From an archaeon (GTDB lineage: Archaea; Thermoproteota; Nitrososphaeria; Nitrososphaerales; Gagatemarchaeaceae), in contig CP066694.1 in assembly GCA_016432545.1 (NCBI GenBank), positions 1,116,001 through 1,180,000 on the forward strand: a stretch of 64,000 nucleotides of DNA, in the 5' to 3' direction. The notes below the pieces were generated by a model. The model was not told the origin of the DNA, did no database searches, and worked only from the letters and a program-made list of their open reading frames with translations. Each line of letters begins with the position of its first letter. Position 1 is the stretch's first letter. The position numbers and the translations under genes are program-made. Of the stretch, positions 1,774-56,320 are shown piece by piece.

Positions 1774-3926
1774 TTCTTGGCCCTCTTCCGCCCTGGGCAA
1801 TCGATGTTGACGCAGAGCCTCCACGGGGTCCTTCCCCCTGAGACATAGACTTCAGGCCACGAGCAGTGCCTACAGGCCTTGCCGGCCCGCCTGATTGCGC
1901 CGCGCTGGGGCAGAGGCGAGGAGGCTATACATCCAGTCCTGTAGTTAGAGCATCCCACGAACCGCTTCTTCGTCTTGGCCGACCTGATGATCTTCAGTGT
2001 CCCGGTCTTGCAGACAGGGCAGGGTCCGAGGCCGTCCGCGACAGCCTCCGAGGACCGGAGGGCCCGGTCGAGTTCGTCTCCGACCTGGGAGCCATTGGCG
2101 GTGAGGCCGATCAGCTGCTCGGCGATGGTCCTGATCGCGTCCCTCAGAATGTCTGCTTCGCCAGAGCCAGAAGCCTCTATGCGCCCGAGTTCCTCCTCGA
2201 TCTCCTTGGTGAGGGAGGGGCTTACTATCTGAGGGGCGTACTTCCTCATCGCCTCGACCACGGAGAACCCTAGCTCTGTGACTTCCATCTTCTCCCCTCC
2301 GACGTAGCCCCTCTGCACCAGGGTCGAGATGATCTCCGCCCGGGTGGCTTTAGTCCCAATGCCGTCCCTCTCCATCCTTTCGAGGAGAGAGGCCTGGTCG
2401 TACCTCCGCGGCGCCTGCTCTGTCTTCTCCTCGACGTCGACGCTTTCGACCTTGACGCTGTCCCCCTTGTTCGCCGACGGAAGTTCGGCCTCCCTGGACC
2501 TTGCGTATCTGCCGTACGACGCCTGCCAACCCGGTTCGAGGGTCCTGCCTCCGCTCAGTCTGAAGCGGTGCTCCCCGACTGATACCTCCACCTCGAGGAC
2601 CTCCCTCTTCGCCGCTGGTCCGAAGGCGGCCAGGAAGCGCCTGACCACGAGGTCGTATACTTGCCCGTCCGGGAAGCGCAGGGCCCTGCCCGGCTCTCCC
2701 CCGGTTGGATAGATTGCAGGATGGGCGGGGTCGTACCTCTGTCCCTGCGCAGGCCTGAGGGGACTGCGCGTCAGCTCTGCGACGAGCTTGGAGTATTCAG
2801 GAGACCGGCCGAGGCCTTTGAGGATGCCCGGGTAGCCTATCGAAGGCGGGAGTCGCTGGCTCTCAGTCCTGGGGTACGAAATCAGCGCCGCCAGGTAGAG
2901 GCGTTCGGCTGCCTGCGAGGTCCTGCTCGGCGGCAGGCGGAGGTGCCGATAGGCCTCCTTCTGAAGGTCTCCCAGGTTGAAGGCGGGAGGAGCAGGGACG
3001 AGGACAGTTCCCCGCGAAGCCTTCGTCACGGTCCCCTCCCTGCCAGCGCAGGCGGCCTGGACTTCCTCGGCCCCGGCCAGCGTCGGAACCCCCTCCCTGG
3101 AGTACTGGCCTTCGAAGCTGACGTCGCCCCTTCTGAAGGTCGCTGCGACCTTCCAGAACGGGACCGGGACGAACTGGCGTACCTCGACCTCGCGTTCGTG
3201 CAGGAAGCCCAGGGTCGGGCCCTGGACGCGACCCATGCTGATGGTCGCGTACCTCCGCCCCGGCCTGAGGGCGGAGCGGGAGAGGACTCGCGACAGGTTG
3301 ACCCCCCACGCGAAGTCGATGACGTGCCTCGCCCTCCCCGCGGCCGCCAGCCCCTGGTGCCTCTGGGCTTCTGCACCATCGAAGGCCGCCACTATGTCGT
3401 CCACGGTGAGCGTGGAGAACTTGGCCCTGAGGGCGTCCTCCTCCCTGCCCTCGCACGCATACCTCAACACGTTGAACCCTATGGTCTCGCCCTCTACGTC
3501 GAAGTCGCAGGCATTGATCAGTTTCTTGGCGCCGGCAGCGAGGCTCCTGATCGCTGCGACCCTCCGCGCCAGACCTTTCGAACCCTCCTCGACCAGGTCC
3601 GAGGGGTACCACTCGGTGTCAAAGACTGGGAAGACGACCCTTTCATCAAAGGGGTCGGAGACGGAGTAGACGTGCCCCAGGGCCGAGCAGACGACGAATT
3701 CCTCCACTCCGCGCCTCAGGCGGTACGCGGTAGTCCCTAGCACTACAAAGGGCCTGGCGCGGCCTCCCGACAGGGCGTCCGCGACCCTCCTCGCGGCGTC
3801 GGGCTTTTCGCAGACTACGAGGGTGTGCCCCTCGCGCGTCTTCCCGTCTACGAAAAGGAGCCGTCTATCTTCCTGACTTCCACCACATACTTCGCGGTCG
3901 AGAGCTTGGTCCCGCACTTCTTGCAC
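1770..3926 (-). CDS. topA: DNA topoisomerase I, type IA (archaeal TopA)
   Basis: Relaxes negative supercoils by transient cleavage of one DNA strand. The TOPRIM domain starts with LVVCEKPDAARRVADAL and carries the metal-binding ACDFDVEGETIGFNV; the catalytic tyrosine is in ALISYPRTES, with the expected RxQ-like GRVQGPTLG before it. The C-terminus has zinc-ribbon cysteines, CPVCKTGTL with GCSNYRTGC, then CRHC and NIDCPGRK. Near 700 residues is normal for the family. The start is unclear: no ATG, GTG or TTG lies close to the TOPRIM domain, and the nearest in-frame starts are GTGs at 3926 and 3917, inside the upstream zinc-ribbon gene. The last codons overlap the next gene's ATG. Confidence 0.95.
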   Translation of the reverse strand: MQEVRDQALDREVCGGSQEDRRLLFVDGKTREGHTLVVCEKPDAARRVADALSGGRARPFVVLGTTAYRLRRGVEEFVVCSALGHVYSVSDPFDERVVFPVFDTEWYPSDLVEEGSKGLARRVAAIRSLAAGAKKLINACDFDVEGETIGFNVLRYACEGREEDALRAKFSTLTVDDIVAAFDGAEAQRHQGLAAAGRARHVIDFAWGVNLSRVLSRSALRPGRRYATISMGRVQGPTLGFLHEREVEVRQFVPVPFWKVAATFRRGDVSFEGQYSREGVPTLAGAEEVQAACAGREGTVTKASRGTVLVPAPPAFNLGDLQKEAYRHLRLPPSRTSQAAERLYLAALISYPRTESQRLPPSIGYPGILKGLGRSPEYSKLVAELTRSPLRPAQGQRYDPAHPAIYPTGGEPGRALRFPDGQVYDLVVRRFLAAFGPAAKREVLEVEVSVGEHRFRLSGGRTLEPGWQASYGRYARSREAELPSANKGDSVKVESVDVEEKTEQAPRRYDQASLLERMERDGIGTKATRAEIISTLVQRGYVGGEKMEVTELGFSVVEAMRKYAPQIVSPSLTKEIEEELGRIEASGSGEADILRDAIRTIAEQLIGLTANGSQVGDELDRALRSSEAVADGLGPCPVCKTGTLKIIRSAKTKKRFVGCSNYRTGCIASSPLPQRGAIRRAGKACRHCSWPEVYVSGGRTPWRLCVNIDCPGRKRAKK

Positions 3927-4024
3927 CTATAGTCGGACGCCTTCATGACGTCGGCGGGGGACCTCAGGTCGAAGCCCGAGTAAAGAGCGGTCCCGCACGA
4001 CATGCAGGCTATCTCGTAAGTCAG
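3848..4024 (-). CDS. Small zinc-ribbon protein between cofE and topA
   Basis: About 58 residues in a different frame from the topA N-terminus. Visible cysteine pairs are CMSCG near the start and CKKCG about 25 residues later, a compact zinc ribbon; the tail reads KYVVEVRKIDGSFS. The first Cys precedes the only in-frame ATG, so that ATG cannot be the start. The best candidate is CTG 4024, preceded by GGTG 5 nt upstream as a short Shine-Dalgarno. It sits 43 nt after the cofE stop, on the same strand. Family unknown, but such short ribbons are frequent in archaeal operons. An alternative is that a frameshift joins it to topA. Confidence 0.6.
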   Translation of the reverse strand: MTYEIACMSCGTALYSGFDLRSPADVMKASDYRCKKCGTKLSTAKYVVEVRKIDGSFS

Positions 4025-15544: not shown

Positions 15545-15892
15545 TCAAGAGTATGACCTCCAGGTGTGGTTGCACTTCACGCACCTGTAGAACTGGGTCG
15601 GCGGCTCGTCGCCGCTCCTCGTCTGCAGGAACCACCACATCGCCTCGCCGTTGCCGCACTTCGGGCACTCGATCTTCGTGGTTGGAAGCGAGCTGAGCTT
15701 GGCCTCCTTCTCCCCGACTATCTTGATCTGGTCGTTTGTGCTGACCAACTCCTCCTCGGTGGCCTGCATGACCGTCTTGCCCGCCTTGTTGGAGTACCCG
15801 CAGTTGTCGCAAAGATAGGTGATCGCGACCTCGCGCGGACCCTTCACCTGCTTTAGCTTGAGACGGGTTCCGCACTTTGGGCAGAACTTCAG
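15545..15892 (-). CDS. tfs: Transcription cleavage factor TFS
   Basis: Stimulates RNA cleavage by backtracked archaeal RNA polymerase. The N-terminal ribbon reads KFCPKCGTRLKLK then YLCDNCGYSN; the C-terminal TFIIS-like ribbon is IECPKCGNGEAMWWFLQTRS, with the catalytic acidic pair normally DE appearing as GDEPPTQFYRCVKCNHTW. To include KFCPKCG the start must be CTG 15892, overlapping the rpoL stop as CTGA, with GGTGG just upstream. Starting at GTG 15847 would delete half the N-terminal ribbon. 115 residues is slightly longer than usual. Confidence 0.92.
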   Translation of the reverse strand: MKFCPKCGTRLKLKQVKGPREVAITYLCDNCGYSNKAGKTVMQATEEELVSTNDQIKIVGEKEAKLSSLPTTKIECPKCGNGEAMWWFLQTRSGDEPPTQFYRCVKCNHTWRSYS

Positions 15893-16176
15893 GAAGACCC
15901 ACCGCCGAGGGCCTTCTTCACGCCCTCGAAGAGCTCCTTGGTGGTTTCGGACGCCCTCTCGACGCCGTTCGAGAAGGCCTTCTCTGGCTTTATCCTCTGG
16001 GCCCTCACCTTGAGGACCAGCTTCTTGATGAGAGGATGAGGAGGCAGGACTCCTGCGAAGGTGACGTTCTTCTCCTCGAGGAGCTCGTGGTGGACTATCT
16101 CGCCGAGGGAGTAGTCCTCTCCCGTTATCTCGACTGTAAGCCCCTTCTCATCTTCGCTGGTAGTCTGGACCTGCAT
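15889..16176 (-). CDS. rpoL: RNA polymerase subunit Rpo11 (RpoL)
   Basis: 95 residues, homologous to eukaryotic Rpb11 and the alpha N-terminal dimerisation domain; pairs with Rpo3 in polymerase assembly. The hallmark region is EEKNVTFAGVLPPHPLIKKL, followed by the amphipathic C-terminal helix. It starts at ATG 16176, 36 nt after csl4, and its stop overlaps the TFS start. Confidence 0.93.
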   Translation of the reverse strand: MQVQTTSEDEKGLTVEITGEDYSLGEIVHHELLEEKNVTFAGVLPPHPLIKKLVLKVRAQRIKPEKAFSNGVERASETTKELFEGVKKALGGGSS

Positions 16177-22419: not shown

Positions 22420-23532
22420 TCAGAACTTGAGGGCCCCAATCTGAGTGACGCGCAGGATGTCGAAATTCTTGCAGAAGACCCTCACGCCCAGAACCTCAGA
22501 GACCGACGGCGAGACGAGCTCTCCGCTCACGAACCTCTTGACCGGGAGCCCTCCGTCCATCTCTGCCTCGACTACCAGGCTCCTTCCCTCCGCCTGCCCC
22601 TTTGCCCTGTAGACCCTCTTCACGGTCGGACGGTCGTGGGGTCTGTCGAACTCCACCTCGGCCCTCCTGAAGGCCCTCCTGAGCTCAGAGACACGCTCGG
22701 GCTCCAGCTTGGAGGAGGCCCTGCACCAGATCCTGGTCACGAACCTGAACTTGGGGAGCCCGACGGGCTTGGACTTCAGCATCCTCCCCGAGGAGACCGC
22801 GACCTGCCCGCCCCTGAACCTCGCCGTGAACTTCCTGGGCACCTTCCTCTTGACCGGGTTCTTCACTTCGGCGACGAAGGGGCGCCCAGGGGAAAGGACC
22901 TTGCTCTCCCTGTCCTCGCTCCCCAGCCAGGTGAAGACTACCTTCTCGCTCCCACAATACCCGCCCAGCTTCTTCCCGACCTCTCCCTCCACGCTGGGCC
23001 TCTTCTGAAGCCCCGTCATCCTGCACTTCGGACATCCGGCCCCCGAGCAGTGGCGGCAGAGCTCCCTCCTCTGGGAGACCTTGGCCGGCTTCGAGTACCG
23101 CCCGTAGAAGTAGACCGGCCTTGAGGTGGCCGAGGGCTCGCCCGAGCCAAAATCGGCAAGCACCGTCACGTCGGGGCGCATCTTCTCTACCCGCCTCCGG
23201 GTCGCCGAGGCCAGGATGCGCGCTATCTCGTTCGAGGCCTGGGTCTTGATCGTCTCCGTCCCCTTGAGCTTGAGGTCTGACCTCAGCTCGTCCTCCCTCT
23301 CCTGGACCCCCTCGGGCATCGAGACCCCGACCGCGAAGGTCCGGAAGTCGTGGCGCTTCACCAGACGAGCGGCTTTCTTCCCCATCCCGGGTATCAGGTC
23401 GAGCAGCCCGCCGCACACGTAGCACGCTCCCCCCTCCACGACCTCGAAGGCCTCCGGCCTCAGAGGCTGCCTCAGCGCGCACCGCTCGCAGAGCTTGTAG
23501 ACCTGCAGCGCTCCGGGCAGGCTACTGGTCAC
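22420..23532 (-). CDS. pus10: tRNA pseudouridine synthase Pus10
   Basis: Makes pseudouridine 54 and 55 in archaeal tRNA. 370 residues. The N-terminal THUMP-like domain has two zinc pairs (LCERCALRQP, CYVCGG); more cysteines follow in LCRHCSGAGCPKCRMTG. The catalytic Asp is in TWLGSEDRESKVL, with RPFVAEVKNPVKRK next, as in the family. LVVEAEMDGGLPVKRFVSGE forms the core. Its start lies 11 nt inside srp54, indicating co-translation. Confidence 0.95.
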   Translation of the reverse strand: MTSSLPGALQVYKLCERCALRQPLRPEAFEVVEGGACYVCGGLLDLIPGMGKKAARLVKRHDFRTFAVGVSMPEGVQEREDELRSDLKLKGTETIKTQASNEIARILASATRRRVEKMRPDVTVLADFGSGEPSATSRPVYFYGRYSKPAKVSQRRELCRHCSGAGCPKCRMTGLQKRPSVEGEVGKKLGGYCGSEKVVFTWLGSEDRESKVLSPGRPFVAEVKNPVKRKVPRKFTARFRGGQVAVSSGRMLKSKPVGLPKFRFVTRIWCRASSKLEPERVSELRRAFRRAEVEFDRPHDRPTVKRVYRAKGQAEGRSLVVEAEMDGGLPVKRFVSGELVSPSVSEVLGVRVFCKNFDILRVTQIGALKF

Positions 23533-25873: not shown

Positions 25874-28717
25874 TTGGACATTCCCTCCCAACTCATTCAA
25901 TCAAAATTAGGAGGGAAGGAAGAAACCCACTCAGGCATTCCTCTATGTACTCCAGAATCGCATCAAGGCGGGGGGATATCACTGGCAACACTCAAACCCG
26001 TAACCATCTTGATAATCTCGCTAATTGTGGTTGGGGGACTACCGATCATCATCCCTGTGAGAATGGTGGAGGCCGCTACAACGGTTTCCCTCTCAGTGCC
26101 CGGATTCTCACCTGTTGCCGCCGCTCTTGCTTGGACGGGGACACAGGACTTCTGTTTCACCTCCTACAAGGTTCAATACTCCACAGACGGCGTAAACTGG
26201 ATCCTTGCTTCTACGATTTCCCAGACGTCTCAAGTGAGTTTCTTCCAGAATGGTAGAACTCCCAACACTTTCCAGTACTATCGAATAGTTGACACCGATT
26301 GCCTTGGATCACAGAACTCAAACACTGTCGGGGTGACCTTCCCGAGAACTGCTACCCTCTCGTATAGTCTGTCTGGATCCAATATCCAACTGTCGTGGAC
26401 CAATAACGCTCACTACGGTGGTATTCTCGCTTTCTCGTCCTACGCAGTATACATGTCAGTGAATGGAGGCGGCTATTCTCTAATCTGGTCTAGTTCCACC
26501 GTGTCCCAGCTTGGAGTCACTGTGTCAGGCGTGCCAGGCAGCACCTACAGCTTCTATGTGGTCACCACTGACGTTTGTTCAAGTTGCGGTGGGCCGTCGT
26601 ATCCCTCTTCTTCAAATTCGAACACAGTCTCCTTGACTGTGCCCCCGTCCTCCTCTTCAGTCACATTCACCGAGTCGGGGCTCGCTTCGGGGACCTCCTG
26701 GGGTGTCACCTTCAACGGCCAGACCCAGTTCCAGACGACTAGCACAATCACCTTCACAAGTGTGTCTAATGGCCAATACGCATGGTCTCTCGCTTCGCCG
26801 ATTCCAGGCGGGTACACTGGGTCCCCTTCGACAGGGACAGTAACCGTCAATGGCGCTAACGTCAACCAACCGATAACGTTCACGCGGGTGTACACGGTTA
26901 CTTTCACAGAAAGCGGGTTGCCATCAGGCACCCAGTGGCAAGTGACCTTCAACGGGATTACACAAGGGGGGACGGCGAACAGCGTATCGTTCTACACGAT
27001 GCCCAACGGACAGTATTCCTTCACCGTAGGAAGTGTGGCCGGCTACATCCCATCCCCTTCGACAGGAACAGTAACCGTCAATGGCGCTAATGTCAATCAG
27101 CCGATAACATTCGATTCTGCTCAATTGAGCAACTGGATGCTTGACAGCCGAATAACGGTGACACAGAACACTCTGAGCACTGTTACGCTAGGGTCTACAT
27201 CTATCACCGACGCATTCACACAGAACCCCGTCACCGTATACATGCTCCAACCGTCCTCGTCTTCGGGCGTAGGGTTTGATCAGGCGTTGTCGGACTACTT
27301 CTCAGTGTCTATTCCCGCTCAGTACAAACCATCTTACGCGATGCTGATTCACATCCCTATGGTGGGCATCGTCGACACGATGTTCGGGACCAATTACCCA
27401 CAACAGACATACGAGTTTGGATTCCCATCTAACCTCTCTCCCGCACTCTTCGGGGGGAATGCGATGATCCGGACGACGCAGGACGGAAGCATCAACTTGC
27501 TGATTACGTCAAGCATACCGATCGGGGAGGCCTTGACGCCCCAGCACGTTGGTGACGTAGTTGGCGCGGCCCTTTCGACCCTCGAATTTGCACTAAAGCA
27601 CAATCCATCCGAGCTGATTTCTGCGCTCAAGGATGCCTTGAACGCGGCGGTTGCCACCGGAGATACGACCTTCACTATCGTGACGTCGAGTTTGTCATCC
27701 ATCGGCAGTCTCTCTGCCTATGCCTTGTTAGACATCTATCACTTGGCCCAAACGATAGGGACTGTTCTGGAAGCTTCTGGCATGCTGCTGGCCCTTCTTA
27801 ACATCTACAAAGACTATCAAGAGTTGTCCGCGTATCTCCTCCTTCTGATAGCTTCTCAGGGAATACCGGTAATCGACTTTGTTGGGTTCGTAGTATTCGG
27901 AGCCCTAGCAATCGCAAAATTCGTCCAACTCGCGTTTTCCGTCTTCGACTTCATCATAGATCTTCTTGGAGACGTATTCACAGACCTAAACAACAATTGG
28001 TTCTATGTTCTCCTTCGAACTTCACTTGACTTCGTCACAGCCAAAATCGACCCGGATAACACCATCATAGTGCCGACGTATTACGACTCTGCCCACAAAA
28101 TCGTCCTCGGGTACAACGAGTCCTCTGGAGCTACGGTGTTCAACAGTCCTTCAGGAACACTTGTCGAGCTCGCAGACTCCTACTACGCTTATCTGGCTGA
28201 GAACGCTGCGGCACCCACGGCATACTCTAGCCGACTGATGACTGTGGGCGGTAATGGGACAGTTCCATATCTCGTCACAGTGCGGAGCTATGTCGATACT
28301 GCGGGGGTCCTGAATTATGCAGGGTTGGTGCCCGGGGGAGGGGCGACAACATTGGAGGTGCCGGTCGGAACTGACGGTTCGCTGGTCCCACAAAGCTACT
28401 TGGTTCCGAGAGTAAACGTGACGAACTCGGGAGACAACTACGTGATAACGGCCCTTCCATTCTTCAGTAACGGGACGGAAACCACCGCTACGGAAGGGTT
28501 CATTGTCATTGAAGGCATTAGCTACAGGATGTTCAAGAGCGCCTCAACATTCACAATCTCGGTGCCTAAGAGCCTGATTACTAGTGATTCGACTTCTCTC
28601 TATCTCGTCAAGCCCGGGATTGTGGGTGGGTACGTCGCTTTGCACTTGCCCTCATACAGCGGCCCCGCTAGCACCTCGGGCGCTGGCGGGAGGGCGTGGA
28701 TGAAGTGCCTGATCTGA
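25874..28717 (+). CDS. Large secreted protein with FN3-like and ESGL repeats
   Basis: A surface protein of about 910-947 residues. The signal peptide is LATLKPVTILIISLIVVGGL followed by PIIIPVRMVEA. After it come two FN3-like domains (about residues 70-260), then two tandem modules opening VTFTESGLASGTSW and VTFTESGLPSGTQW and closing NGANVNQPITF, a module common on archaeal cell-surface proteins. A long C-terminal region has hydrophobic helices (LLALLNIYKDYQELSAYLLL). The only canonical in-frame start, TTG 25874, puts 36 residues ahead of the signal peptide; CTG 25982 fits better. Lower GC than its neighbours suggests acquisition. Many N-x-S/T sequons would be AglB targets. Confidence 0.8.
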   Translation: MDIPSQLIQSKLGGKEETHSGIPLCTPESHQGGGISLATLKPVTILIISLIVVGGLPIIIPVRMVEAATTVSLSVPGFSPVAAALAWTGTQDFCFTSYKVQYSTDGVNWILASTISQTSQVSFFQNGRTPNTFQYYRIVDTDCLGSQNSNTVGVTFPRTATLSYSLSGSNIQLSWTNNAHYGGILAFSSYAVYMSVNGGGYSLIWSSSTVSQLGVTVSGVPGSTYSFYVVTTDVCSSCGGPSYPSSSNSNTVSLTVPPSSSSVTFTESGLASGTSWGVTFNGQTQFQTTSTITFTSVSNGQYAWSLASPIPGGYTGSPSTGTVTVNGANVNQPITFTRVYTVTFTESGLPSGTQWQVTFNGITQGGTANSVSFYTMPNGQYSFTVGSVAGYIPSPSTGTVTVNGANVNQPITFDSAQLSNWMLDSRITVTQNTLSTVTLGSTSITDAFTQNPVTVYMLQPSSSSGVGFDQALSDYFSVSIPAQYKPSYAMLIHIPMVGIVDTMFGTNYPQQTYEFGFPSNLSPALFGGNAMIRTTQDGSINLLITSSIPIGEALTPQHVGDVVGAALSTLEFALKHNPSELISALKDALNAAVATGDTTFTIVTSSLSSIGSLSAYALLDIYHLAQTIGTVLEASGMLLALLNIYKDYQELSAYLLLLIASQGIPVIDFVGFVVFGALAIAKFVQLAFSVFDFIIDLLGDVFTDLNNNWFYVLLRTSLDFVTAKIDPDNTIIVPTYYDSAHKIVLGYNESSGATVFNSPSGTLVELADSYYAYLAENAAAPTAYSSRLMTVGGNGTVPYLVTVRSYVDTAGVLNYAGLVPGGGATTLEVPVGTDGSLVPQSYLVPRVNVTNSGDNYVITALPFFSNGTETTATEGFIVIEGISYRMFKSASTFTISVPKSLITSDSTSLYLVKPGIVGGYVALHLPSYSGPASTSGAGGRAWMKCLI
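26823..26881 (+). repeat. 59-bp direct repeat, copy 1
   Basis: Encodes the closing part of the first ESGL module. It matches 27054-27112 with about five mismatches, mostly synonymous, so the two modules look like a recent duplication or have been homogenised. Confidence 0.85.
27054..27112 (+). repeat. 59-bp direct repeat, copy 2
   Basis: Second copy, 231 bp downstream of the first, closing the second ESGL module. The module openings (26655 onward and 26895 onward) are more diverged than these tails. Confidence 0.85.
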
Positions 28718-38170: not shown

Positions 38171-39391
38171 ATGCCGAACCCCGACCTGGAGGACCGACTC
38201 TTCTGGCTCGCCTCAGAGAAGGAGATCCGGACCGCACAGACGACAGACGCCTACTTCCTGCACTCCAAGAAGGTCCTCCAAAGAAACAACATCGACTCGA
38301 AGGTCGTCATGGAGGTCTACGCACGTGATGTCCCCTACGCGGACAACTGGGGGATCCTCACGGGGGTCTACGAGGCCGCCAAGCTCCTCGAGGGCCTGCC
38401 AATCGACGTCTGGTCCTTCGACGAGGGCTCCGTCTTCGTAGCCGACCGGACGACCGCCATCTATGAGCCCCTCATGGTGATCGAGGGGAAGTACTCCGAC
38501 TTCGTAGAGTACGAGAACCCTCTGCTGGGCCTGCTCTCCTCTTCGACAAGCGTTTCTAGCAGGGCCGCCAGGTTCAGGATCGCCGCCGGCTCCAGACTGC
38601 TCATCAGCTTCGGGACGCGCAGGGTCCACCCCGCCCTCGCCCCAATGGTGGAGCGGGCCTGCTACGTCGCCGGCTTCGACGGCGTCTCCAACGTACTCGG
38701 CGCGAAGCTGCTCAAGTTGGAACCCACAGGCACCATGCCCCACGCACTGGTGCAGATCCTCGGGAGCCAGGAGAGGGCCTGGCGCCTCTTCGACGAGACA
38801 ATCCCCAAGGGGGTCCCCAGGGTCGCGCTCGTCGACACCTTCTGGGACGAGAAGGCAGAGTCGATCAGGGCCTTCGAAGTGCTCGGCACAAGGCTCTGGG
38901 GGGTCCGCCTCGACACCCCGGCTTCGCGCCGCGGGGACTTCCTGAAGATCGCCGAGGAGGTGAGGTGGGAGCTGGACATCCGGGGCGGGAAGAAGGTCAA
39001 GATCATCGCGTCCGGGCGCCTCGACGAAGAGGCCATCTCGAAGCTCAACCCAGTGGTGGACGGGTACGGGGTCGGCACGGCAGTCGCCTATCCCCCTGTG
39101 ATCGACCTCAGCGCCAAGATAGTGGAGGTGACCGAGGGCACCAAGACCGAGTTCAGGGCCAAGCGCGGCGGGCTCGGGGGCCGCAAGACGGTCCAGCGCT
39201 CCCCTGGGTTCAGGGACTTTGTGGCCCAAGGCGGTCCTCCCAAGGCCATCCGCCCTAATGACATGCTGAAGCCCCTCCTCAAGAACGGCAAGATCGTAGG
39301 CAAGATGGACTCGACCGAGGCGGTCCGCTCAAGGGTCCTTTCCGACCTGGAGGCCCTGAAGGGGACGCAGCCCTCCCTTTCCTGGAGGTGA
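38171..39391 (+). CDS. pncB: Nicotinate phosphoribosyltransferase
   Basis: Joins nicotinate and PRPP to nicotinate mononucleotide in NAD salvage. 406 residues: REIRTAQTTDAYFLHSKKVL-type N-terminus, LLGLLSSSTSVSSRAARFRI, FGTRRVHPALAPMVERACYV with the substrate-binding FDGVSNVLGAKL, and DTFWDEKAESIRAF. ATG 38171. The last codons, with TGA 39389-39391, carry a perfect GGAGGTGA that can serve the next gene, pncA. Confidence 0.94.
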   Translation: MPNPDLEDRLFWLASEKEIRTAQTTDAYFLHSKKVLQRNNIDSKVVMEVYARDVPYADNWGILTGVYEAAKLLEGLPIDVWSFDEGSVFVADRTTAIYEPLMVIEGKYSDFVEYENPLLGLLSSSTSVSSRAARFRIAAGSRLLISFGTRRVHPALAPMVERACYVAGFDGVSNVLGAKLLKLEPTGTMPHALVQILGSQERAWRLFDETIPKGVPRVALVDTFWDEKAESIRAFEVLGTRLWGVRLDTPASRRGDFLKIAEEVRWELDIRGGKKVKIIASGRLDEEAISKLNPVVDGYGVGTAVAYPPVIDLSAKIVEVTEGTKTEFRAKRGGLGGRKTVQRSPGFRDFVAQGGPPKAIRPNDMLKPLLKNGKIVGKMDSTEAVRSRVLSDLEALKGTQPSLSWR

Positions 39392-39410
39392 CGCCGGGAC
39401 GCGCCCTGCC

Positions 39411-53899: not shown

Positions 53900-56320
53900 C
53901 TGGAGATCCTGTCCTACGACCTCGGCCTCGAAGTAGACTTCAAGCGCTCGGTTCTCGACGGGACTGAATCGATCAAAGTCAGGTCCGCGAGGGAGCCGCT
54001 CCACCTGAACGCGACCAAGATGGAGATAATGGGCGTCGAAGTGAACGGCAAGAAGGCTCCTTTCTCACACTCGAAGTCCAAAGGGATCCTTTCAATCAGA
54101 GGCGTCCCGAAGAAACTCTCCACCGTCGGAATTGCGTACAGAAAGGAGGTCTCGGACGATTCGATCTTCGGGCTCTACAAGTCGAAATACGGCAAGGACC
54201 ACCTCCTCGCCACCGACCTCGAGCCGGCCGAGGCCCGCTCAGTCTTCCCCTGCCTCGACGAACCGGCCTTCAAGGCGGTCTTCAGGCTCAAGGTGACCAC
54301 AGAGGACGGACTGAAGGTCATCTCGAACATGCCCGTTGCGTCGTCGAGCCGGACCAAGGACGGGCGAAGGGCCTCGGTCTTCCAGCCGACCCCGAAGATG
54401 TCCACTTACCTCTTCTTCCTTGGAGTCGGCAAGTTCGACGAGGCCACGACCACAGCAGGCCGCTCAAAGGTGATAGTCGCATCCCGGCCGGGCCAGGCCG
54501 ACAACACCCGCTTCATCGGCAAAGTCTGCGCGGACGTTCTCGAGGACTTCGGGAAGTACTTCGGAATCCCCTACCCGCTCCCCAAGCTCCACCTCGTCGC
54601 CCTCCCAGAATACCACACCGGGGCCATGGAGAACTGGGGCGCCATCGCCTCCCGCGAGTCGCTAGTCCTTGTCAGGCCCGACTCCAGCCTCTCCGACCAC
54701 CGCTCCGCCGCCCGGGTCCAGGCCCACGAGATCGCCCACATGTGGTTCGGCGACCTCGTCACAATGAAGTGGTGGGACGACTTGTGGCTCAACGAGAGCT
54801 TTGCGACCTTCATGTCTGCCAAGGTACTCAGCCGCCTCCACCCCGACTGGGACCCCTGGCGCGACTTCCTTCGCGCCGAGACGTTCAGGGCTCTGAACGT
54901 GGACGCCCTCTCGTCCACCCATCCGATCCAGGTCCAGGTCAACAGCGTAGAGGAGATCAACGGGCTCTTCGACACGATCAGCTACGGCAAGGGGGCGGCC
55001 GTCCTCAGGATGCTCGAGGCCTACGTCGGCGACGAGCCGTTCAGGAAGGGGATCTCGGCCTACCTCAAGAAGTTCCGCTACTCCAACGCCGCAGGGTCGG
55101 ACCTCTGGAACGCCCTGGGCAGGGCCTCGGGACTTCCCGTCTCGCGCGTAGCGAAGGCCTGGCTCACAATCGCGGGGTTCCCCGTCGTCCGGGCGAAGGC
55201 CTCGAAGGGCAAGCTGAGCCTCACCCAGAGCAAGTTCAAGCTGACCGGGAAGGAGTCCAAGGAGGTCTGGCCGATTCCGCTCACCTTCGACGACGGGGGC
55301 CGCCAGCAGCGTGTCCTCTTCGACCATCCCTCGACCACGGTCAAGGCCGCCAGGCCCGAGCGCCTCGTCCTCAACTCGCGCCGGACAGGGTTCTACAGCG
55401 TACTCTACGACGAAGCCATGTACCGCCAGCTCGCCAAGGGCTTCTCCTCCCTCCACTCGCACGACAGGGCGGGGATCATCAACGACCTCTATCTCTTCAT
55501 CCAGGCCGGGATCGCCGAGCCCGCCCAGTACTTCCGCTTCGTGGCCCTCGCCTCCAAGCTCAAGGACCCGCTCATCAGCCTCGCGATCAGCGACCAGCTC
55601 CACGGCCTCCGGGCCATCGCGAGCGACGCCGAGACTGTGCGCAAAGCCTACCACGGGTTCTTCGAGTCGCAGCTTCGCCTCGTGGGCCTGACGCCGAAGC
55701 CGAAGGAGGAGGAGAGCGCGGGTATCGTGAGGGAGGCAGTCGCCATGCTCCTGGCAAAGGCGAGCCCGTCCCTGGCCGCGAAGCTGGCGCAGAAGTTCGA
55801 CGACTTTGAATCGGTGGACCCCAACCTCAAGGAAGCGGTCGTGGTGGGCTATGCGATGCACCGCGGCCCCGCCGCCTTCGGCCCCCTCGTGGACCTCCTG
55901 GGGACTGTCAAGACCGAGGTGGACAGGGGCAAGGTCTACGGCGCCCTGACCTCGCTCCAACCCAGCCTCGTAGAGAAGACGCTCGACATGACCCTCGACG
56001 GTGAAGTGAGCCGCTCCGACTCGGGCCCGGCCTTCCGCGGAGCCTACAACAACCCGGCCTCGGTCCCGACCCTGTGGGGCTGGGTCGCGAAGAACTACGA
56101 GAAGTTCCGCGACGTCTACGGAGGGACCCAGCAGTTCTATCTCTACATGGGCGCGGCGATCCCGCGGATAGGGATTGGACACGAAGCCGAGGTCAGGAGC
56201 TTCATCTCCGGCAAGAGGTACAAGGGGAACGAGATGACCTTCCGCAGGGCCTTCGAACAGCTCGAGGTCAACGCCCGGCTCCGCCGCGCGCTCCTCGCAG
56301 CCCAGGCCCGCAAGGCATAA
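53900..56320 (+). CDS. M1-family zinc aminopeptidase
   Basis: About 806 residues. Removes N-terminal residues from peptides. The exopeptidase motif is GAMENWGAIASR and the zinc site is QAHEIAHMWFGDLVTMKWWD, then NESFATFMS with the third ligand; SYGKGAAVLRMLEAY follows. The N-terminal domain starts LSYDLGLEVDFKRSVLDGTE, upstream of the first ATG (54020), so the true start lies earlier. No ATG, GTG or TTG is in frame there; CTG 53900 (or 53909) sits where relatives begin. A TTG at 53886, spaced properly from a TATA-like element, is one base out of frame, so a missing G in the GGGG run is the alternative. Confidence 0.92.
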   Translation: MEILSYDLGLEVDFKRSVLDGTESIKVRSAREPLHLNATKMEIMGVEVNGKKAPFSHSKSKGILSIRGVPKKLSTVGIAYRKEVSDDSIFGLYKSKYGKDHLLATDLEPAEARSVFPCLDEPAFKAVFRLKVTTEDGLKVISNMPVASSSRTKDGRRASVFQPTPKMSTYLFFLGVGKFDEATTTAGRSKVIVASRPGQADNTRFIGKVCADVLEDFGKYFGIPYPLPKLHLVALPEYHTGAMENWGAIASRESLVLVRPDSSLSDHRSAARVQAHEIAHMWFGDLVTMKWWDDLWLNESFATFMSAKVLSRLHPDWDPWRDFLRAETFRALNVDALSSTHPIQVQVNSVEEINGLFDTISYGKGAAVLRMLEAYVGDEPFRKGISAYLKKFRYSNAAGSDLWNALGRASGLPVSRVAKAWLTIAGFPVVRAKASKGKLSLTQSKFKLTGKESKEVWPIPLTFDDGGRQQRVLFDHPSTTVKAARPERLVLNSRRTGFYSVLYDEAMYRQLAKGFSSLHSHDRAGIINDLYLFIQAGIAEPAQYFRFVALASKLKDPLISLAISDQLHGLRAIASDAETVRKAYHGFFESQLRLVGLTPKPKEEESAGIVREAVAMLLAKASPSLAAKLAQKFDDFESVDPNLKEAVVVGYAMHRGPAAFGPLVDLLGTVKTEVDRGKVYGALTSLQPSLVEKTLDMTLDGEVSRSDSGPAFRGAYNNPASVPTLWGWVAKNYEKFRDVYGGTQQFYLYMGAAIPRIGIGHEAEVRSFISGKRYKGNEMTFRRAFEQLEVNARLRRALLAAQARKA

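Follow-up and report, generated by a model that had tools for sequence, protein, structure and literature searches.

Several conserved genes of a Group 1.1c, Gagatemarchaeaceae-like archaeon appear to be translated from the near-cognate codons CTG and ACG. It is probable (at roughly 0.85, judging from sequence comparison) that these codons are read by the ordinary initiator on ribosomes placed by Shine-Dalgarno (SD) pairing, in a clade of low start-codon stringency, with the overlap of stop and start codons at tfs possibly being of help. The window, the whole 64,000-nucleotide stretch of DNA that was analysed, comprises positions 1116001-1180000 of a complete single-contig Nitrososphaerales genome of 1,504,237 bases with a GC content of 60%. 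The Group 1.1c family has been described (PMC10640624), and relatives of the TFS protein were found in Nitrososphaerales MAGs, including Candidatus Gagatemarchaeum stordalenia, with some of the relatives used here being known from single MAGs. Near-cognate initiation as such is known, but a use of it that is conserved throughout an archaeal clade seems not to have been described, and no reports of CTG starts in Group 1.1c were found in the open-access literature. The clearest case is provided by tfs, for which the relevant features are the following:

15892-15890, minus strand: CTG start codon of tfs, from the sequence and 29 clade sequences; overlaps the rpoL stop as CTGA
15545..15892, minus strand: tfs coding sequence read from CTG, 115 aa, matching TIGR01384
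15898..15906, minus strand: SD-like GGCGGTGGG located 5' of the tfs CTG, from the sequence; duplex energy -9.8
15889..16176, minus strand: rpoL (RNA polymerase subunit L), from the ORF list and sequence; identity from the initial annotation and gene context
15891-15889, minus strand: rpoL stop codon TGA overlapping the tfs start, from the sequence

The initial annotation had singled out the CTG at 15892, in CTGA overlap with the rpoL stop, as the most convincing of a recurrent set of CTG starts, and this is borne out by the 29 distinct clade sequences, approximately 19 of which carry CTG at the exact start column. The codons following the CTG (AAG TTC TGC CCA AAG TGC) encode the conserved beginning of TFS, and profile searches gave a full-length match, N-terminal zinc ribbon included, to TIGR01384 (TFS residues 2-114, profile positions 1-100, 86.5 bits against a cut-off of 64.75), as well as a PF01096 match at the C-terminus. 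From the in-frame stop 85 codons upstream, the frame contains no ATG, GTG or TTG until a GTG at +15 (codon 16), initiation at which would deprive the protein of its first zinc-ribbon cysteines. CTG is present and a canonical codon is absent from the upstream stop to +8 in 18 of the 29 clade sequences, while in one further sequence with CTG a TTG 11 codons upstream is the sole canonical codon; ATG, GTG or TTG occupies the start column in eight sequences, and a GTG lies two codons upstream of the column in two. An in-frame stop is found only two codons ahead of the tfs CTG in two of the relatives (L042 and L049). The residues after the CTG are conserved in the approximately 19 sequences although no canonical codon precedes them, and a GGCGGTGG-type motif 5' of the start is kept in congeners. 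On the weakly resolved TFS tree, at least five interchanges between CTG and canonical codons can be counted, which is the behaviour of interchangeable start codons. TFS is also the gene for which the near-cognate comparison extended to the outgroup families, in all of which CTG is absent from the tfs start and ATG, GTG or TTG is found there, a few distant rows being imperfectly aligned.

Four further genes in the window had been proposed to start with CTG, and they are arranged as follows:

3848..4024, minus strand: zinc-ribbon gene, CTG start at 4024-4022, GGTG at 4033-4030
53900..56320, plus strand: M1 peptidase, CTG start at 53900-53902, from the congener column and PF17900
39399..39983, plus strand: nicotinamidase, ACG start at 39399-39401, from the congener column, PF00857 and PRK11609
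39384..39391, plus strand: SD GGAGGTGA of nicotinamidase, from the sequence and ORF list; duplex energy -15.0, kept in congeners
25982..28717, plus strand: secreted ESGL protein, CTG 25982 a possible start with a strong SD

Together with tfs, the zinc-ribbon and M1 genes retain their proposed CTG starts, at 4024 and 53900, respectively, whereas nicotinamidase proves to be an ACG case. The start column of the zinc-ribbon gene holds CTG here and TTG, ATG or GTG in approximately 20 congeners, the first canonical codon downstream being an ATG at +7 within the conserved block. For the M1 peptidase, the column contains CTG here and in two congeners, ACG in six and ATG, TTG or GTG in others, with a stop one codon ahead of the ACG in the M1 gene of G008; the next canonical codon occurs at +40, and PF17900 covers residues 5-171, starting at profile position 4. 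The absence of a canonical start had been correctly recognised for nicotinamidase, as had ACG 39399 as an alternative, while CTG 39411 was dropped as the start because the congener start column, with GTG, TTG, CTG or ACG, falls on ACG 39399. This ACG sits 7 nt after GGAGGTGA, and the TGA contained in the latter terminates the upstream gene (38171-39391). PF00857 covers nicotinamidase residues 4-184 from profile position 2, the PRK11609 match lies above its cut-off, and a canonical codon is present downstream at +7. Two relatives (L133 and L137) have ATC as the apparent nicotinamidase start. In G002 (L145), no canonical start and no evident near-cognate one was seen behind the GGAGATGA motif, and an indel is possible at this locus. 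For the ESGL protein, the part alignable with homologues begins at residue 138, and there is a TTG at +9. In the TFS, zinc-ribbon, M1 and nicotinamidase genes, no canonical in-frame start fits the conserved N-terminus and the near-cognate codon stands in the canonical start column of the orthologues; among the relatives, CTG and ACG exchange freely with canonical codons in this same column. A Pus10-like gene (window 23520-23532, minus strand) was dropped as a CTG case as a GTG lies four codons upstream. Its column holds GTG in four congeners and CTG here, and the upstream GTG may have taken over.

The comparison of starts covered 400 kb of the genome itself against 800 kb of G015, a large part of G002, sections of G003, G008 and G023, and others. 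The names of TFS, M1, nicotinamidase and LysX come from family searches and the remaining names from reading of the sequences. Approximately eight of the 190 coding genes having relatives in the 400 kb are without a usable canonical start, namely TFS, zinc-ribbon, M1, nicotinamidase, LysX, an HxlR-type regulator, a NuoM-like subunit and topoisomerase VI B, the resulting 4-5% being an estimate from a list curated by hand out of automatic scans. The ACG of LysX, for which the comparison used paralogues of 47-50% identity, occurs 4 nt after the upstream stop, the HxlR-type regulator and NuoM-like subunit have CTG starts, and the CTG start of topoisomerase VI B, again in a CTGA overlap, is conserved in G015. 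When topoisomerase VI B is read from this CTG, a single base relative to G015 breaks the frame after 18 codons (L226, G000:C1 approximately 1341575-1341650, plus strand), for which an assembly error, a pseudogene and frameshifting are all possible. Pcc1 and NuoJ are probable ACG-start cases. Sixty-one starts were placed by comparison, including 25 ATG, 23 TTG and 8 GTG. When three clade genomes were scanned automatically, 17 genes proved to have neither a canonical codon in the column where the relatives start nor a canonical alternative nearby. In nine of them the codon in this column is CTG or ACG, two codons that together make up 5.7% of coding codons (binomial p ~1e-7). Many ORFs flagged automatically were dropped as antisense or repeat artefacts. 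Near-cognate starts also occur in the relatives, with CTG in HpaB-like and thiolase-like genes and ACG in a YHS-domain gene, while one further family has ACG beside a stop in three species. RNase Z has ATA in G015 and G002 opposite an ATG in G008, directly behind a GGAGG-like motif (L244-L245 region, G015:C1:426767), and this may be an AUA start. The phenomenon is wider than CTG, encompassing ACG and probably AUA and AUC, and common to the clade rather than to this genome alone.

The near-cognate starts as a set carry a ribosome-binding signal at normal spacing. The median anti-SD duplex energy is -9.55 for 20 near-cognate starts, a set which was partly hand-picked (a few with the SD in view) and includes ESGL, against -4.1 for 245 canonical starts (p 1.5e-7) and -3.9 for 1603 internal CTG and ACG codons (p 1.9e-10), suggesting that a weak codon is accompanied by a strong SD. 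Taken individually, the SDs of the M1 and zinc-ribbon genes are indistinguishable from the control. The initiator tRNA is ordinary, with a CAT anticodon and GGG/CCC stem, and a single pattern search, blind to intron-split genes, gave no sign of an initiator-like tRNA carrying a different anticodon (CAG or CGU). The initiator tRNA-Met gene itself (L349, G000:C1 around 899179, plus strand) is apparently intron-split at the 37/38 site and probably also in the D and T arms, and comparable copies in relatives are missed by ARAGORN. We infer that methionine is encoded by the near-cognate codon. CUG and ACG, and in the relatives probably AUA and AUC too, would be read through a mismatch by the ordinary Met-tRNAi with its CAU anticodon, with strong SD pairing setting the small subunit on the near-cognate codon. 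At tfs, the CTGA overlap with the rpoL stop may permit termination-coupled re-initiation. Start-codon stringency in the clade would be low, with TTG nearly equalling ATG and a few percent of genes starting on CTG or ACG.

Coupling could also be given a larger role, in that translation of these genes is wholly dependent on the upstream gene and terminating ribosomes re-initiate at whatever near-cognate codon is next to the stop, stringency in general being unrelaxed. The start codon overlaps the upstream stop, or is found no more than ~20 nt from it, in TFS and topoisomerase VI B, with their CTGA overlaps, and in nicotinamidase and LysX, where ACG is a few nt from the stop, and Haloferax is known to couple translation across short distances (PMC10666635). 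However, there is no such arrangement at the M1 gene (CTG/ACG), or at the zinc-ribbon and HxlR-type genes in the stretches examined, and the unusually frequent TTG also speaks against coupling alone, making this explanation unlikely; re-initiation presumably contributes where stop and start touch. It is less likely still that the proteins start at the next downstream ATG, GTG or TTG and are merely shorter than their homologues. Such a codon is present in every case and the loss would be small for the zinc-ribbon and nicotinamidase genes, but TFS would forfeit its first zinc-ribbon cysteines, M1 40 residues and LysX 51. These codons lie downstream of the start column seen in the relatives and of the conserved block, and also of conserved residues in the approximately 19 TFS sequences. 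Editing of the mRNA is more improbable still. A single C-to-U conversion would turn CUG and ACG into the canonical starts UUG and AUG, respectively, as in the editing of plant organelles, but such a change cannot restore a canonical codon from the ATA of RNase Z or the ATC of nicotinamidase, and we know of no start-codon editing of mRNA in archaea. The conversion of ordinary starts to CTG or ACG by sequencing errors, which the frame break in topoisomerase VI B suggests may occur as single-base errors in this assembly, has a negligible probability. The comparison, over approximately 30 species, rules it out for TFS (the same CTG in approximately 19 clade sequences of separate assemblies) and for M1 (ACG in six congeners), and it is contradicted by the recurrence of the ACG of one family in three species.

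Returning to near-cognate reading by the ordinary initiator, the initiation factor aIF1 is a candidate for the source of the low stringency. In Sulfolobus, aIF1 favours discrimination against non-canonical starts, and an N-terminal zinc knuckle is present in 64% of archaeal aIF1 proteins (PMC6237735). Loss of aIF1 is ruled out, as the factor is present. The zinc knuckle is absent from all 14 clade loci examined and present in 14 of the 16 outgroup loci. The two knuckle-less outgroup exceptions, G032 and G039, have TFS starts of ATG and TTG, such that aIF1 can be regarded as a lead only and loss of the knuckle as the sole cause was set aside. The clade aIF1 also reads LATGGT where most outgroup families have LACGGT, with G032 and G039 being of the clade type (L212, L197-L211). 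A role of the altered aIF1 in relaxed stringency is weakly suggested by this correlation. The broader proposal, that Group 1.1c as a whole has lowered its start-codon stringency and, in several percent of its genes, routinely starts at CUG, ACG or AUA as interchangeable codons conserved over long times, compensated for by stronger SD pairing and caused by the knuckle-less aIF1, is tentative and in this full form rather doubtful.

Among prokaryotes with unusual non-canonical starts, Deinococcus deserti reportedly uses non-canonical initiation codons, with proof by N-terminal proteomics attributed to Baudet in 2010, a study cited in PMC3219674. It is a bacterium with peptide-based proof, whereas the starts of this clade are proposed from sequence comparison. 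In the archaeon Aeropyrum pernix, starts are strongly non-AUG (TTG 52%, ATG 28%, GTG 20%) on SD-led genes and the initiator is normal as far as is known (PMC5911459). Only ATG, GTG and TTG are reported there, however, while CTG, ACG and probably AUA occur in this clade and are conserved across species. The CTGA geometry at tfs and topoisomerase VI B corresponds to the ATGA pairs of archaeal termination-reinitiation at 4-nt overlaps (PMC10666635), with the difference that the reported pairs use canonical starts and the overlapping start here is CTG. Near-cognate initiation in eukaryotes likewise favours CUG and ACG and is policed by eIF1, with e/aIF1 guarding start-codon choice in both domains (PMC6237735), but eukaryotes locate the codon by scanning whereas here the ribosome would be placed through SD pairing.

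If this reading is true, gene callers limited to ATG, GTG and TTG probably mis-annotate TFS, LysX, topoisomerase VI B and further core proteins in this group of archaea, which is abundant in soil, and probably cut them short. The clade would further represent a natural experiment on the policing of start codons by archaeal and eukaryotic-type ribosomes, in which the codons that are leaky in eukaryotes, CUG and ACG, are conserved, with SD pairing compensating and aIF1 as the candidate factor.
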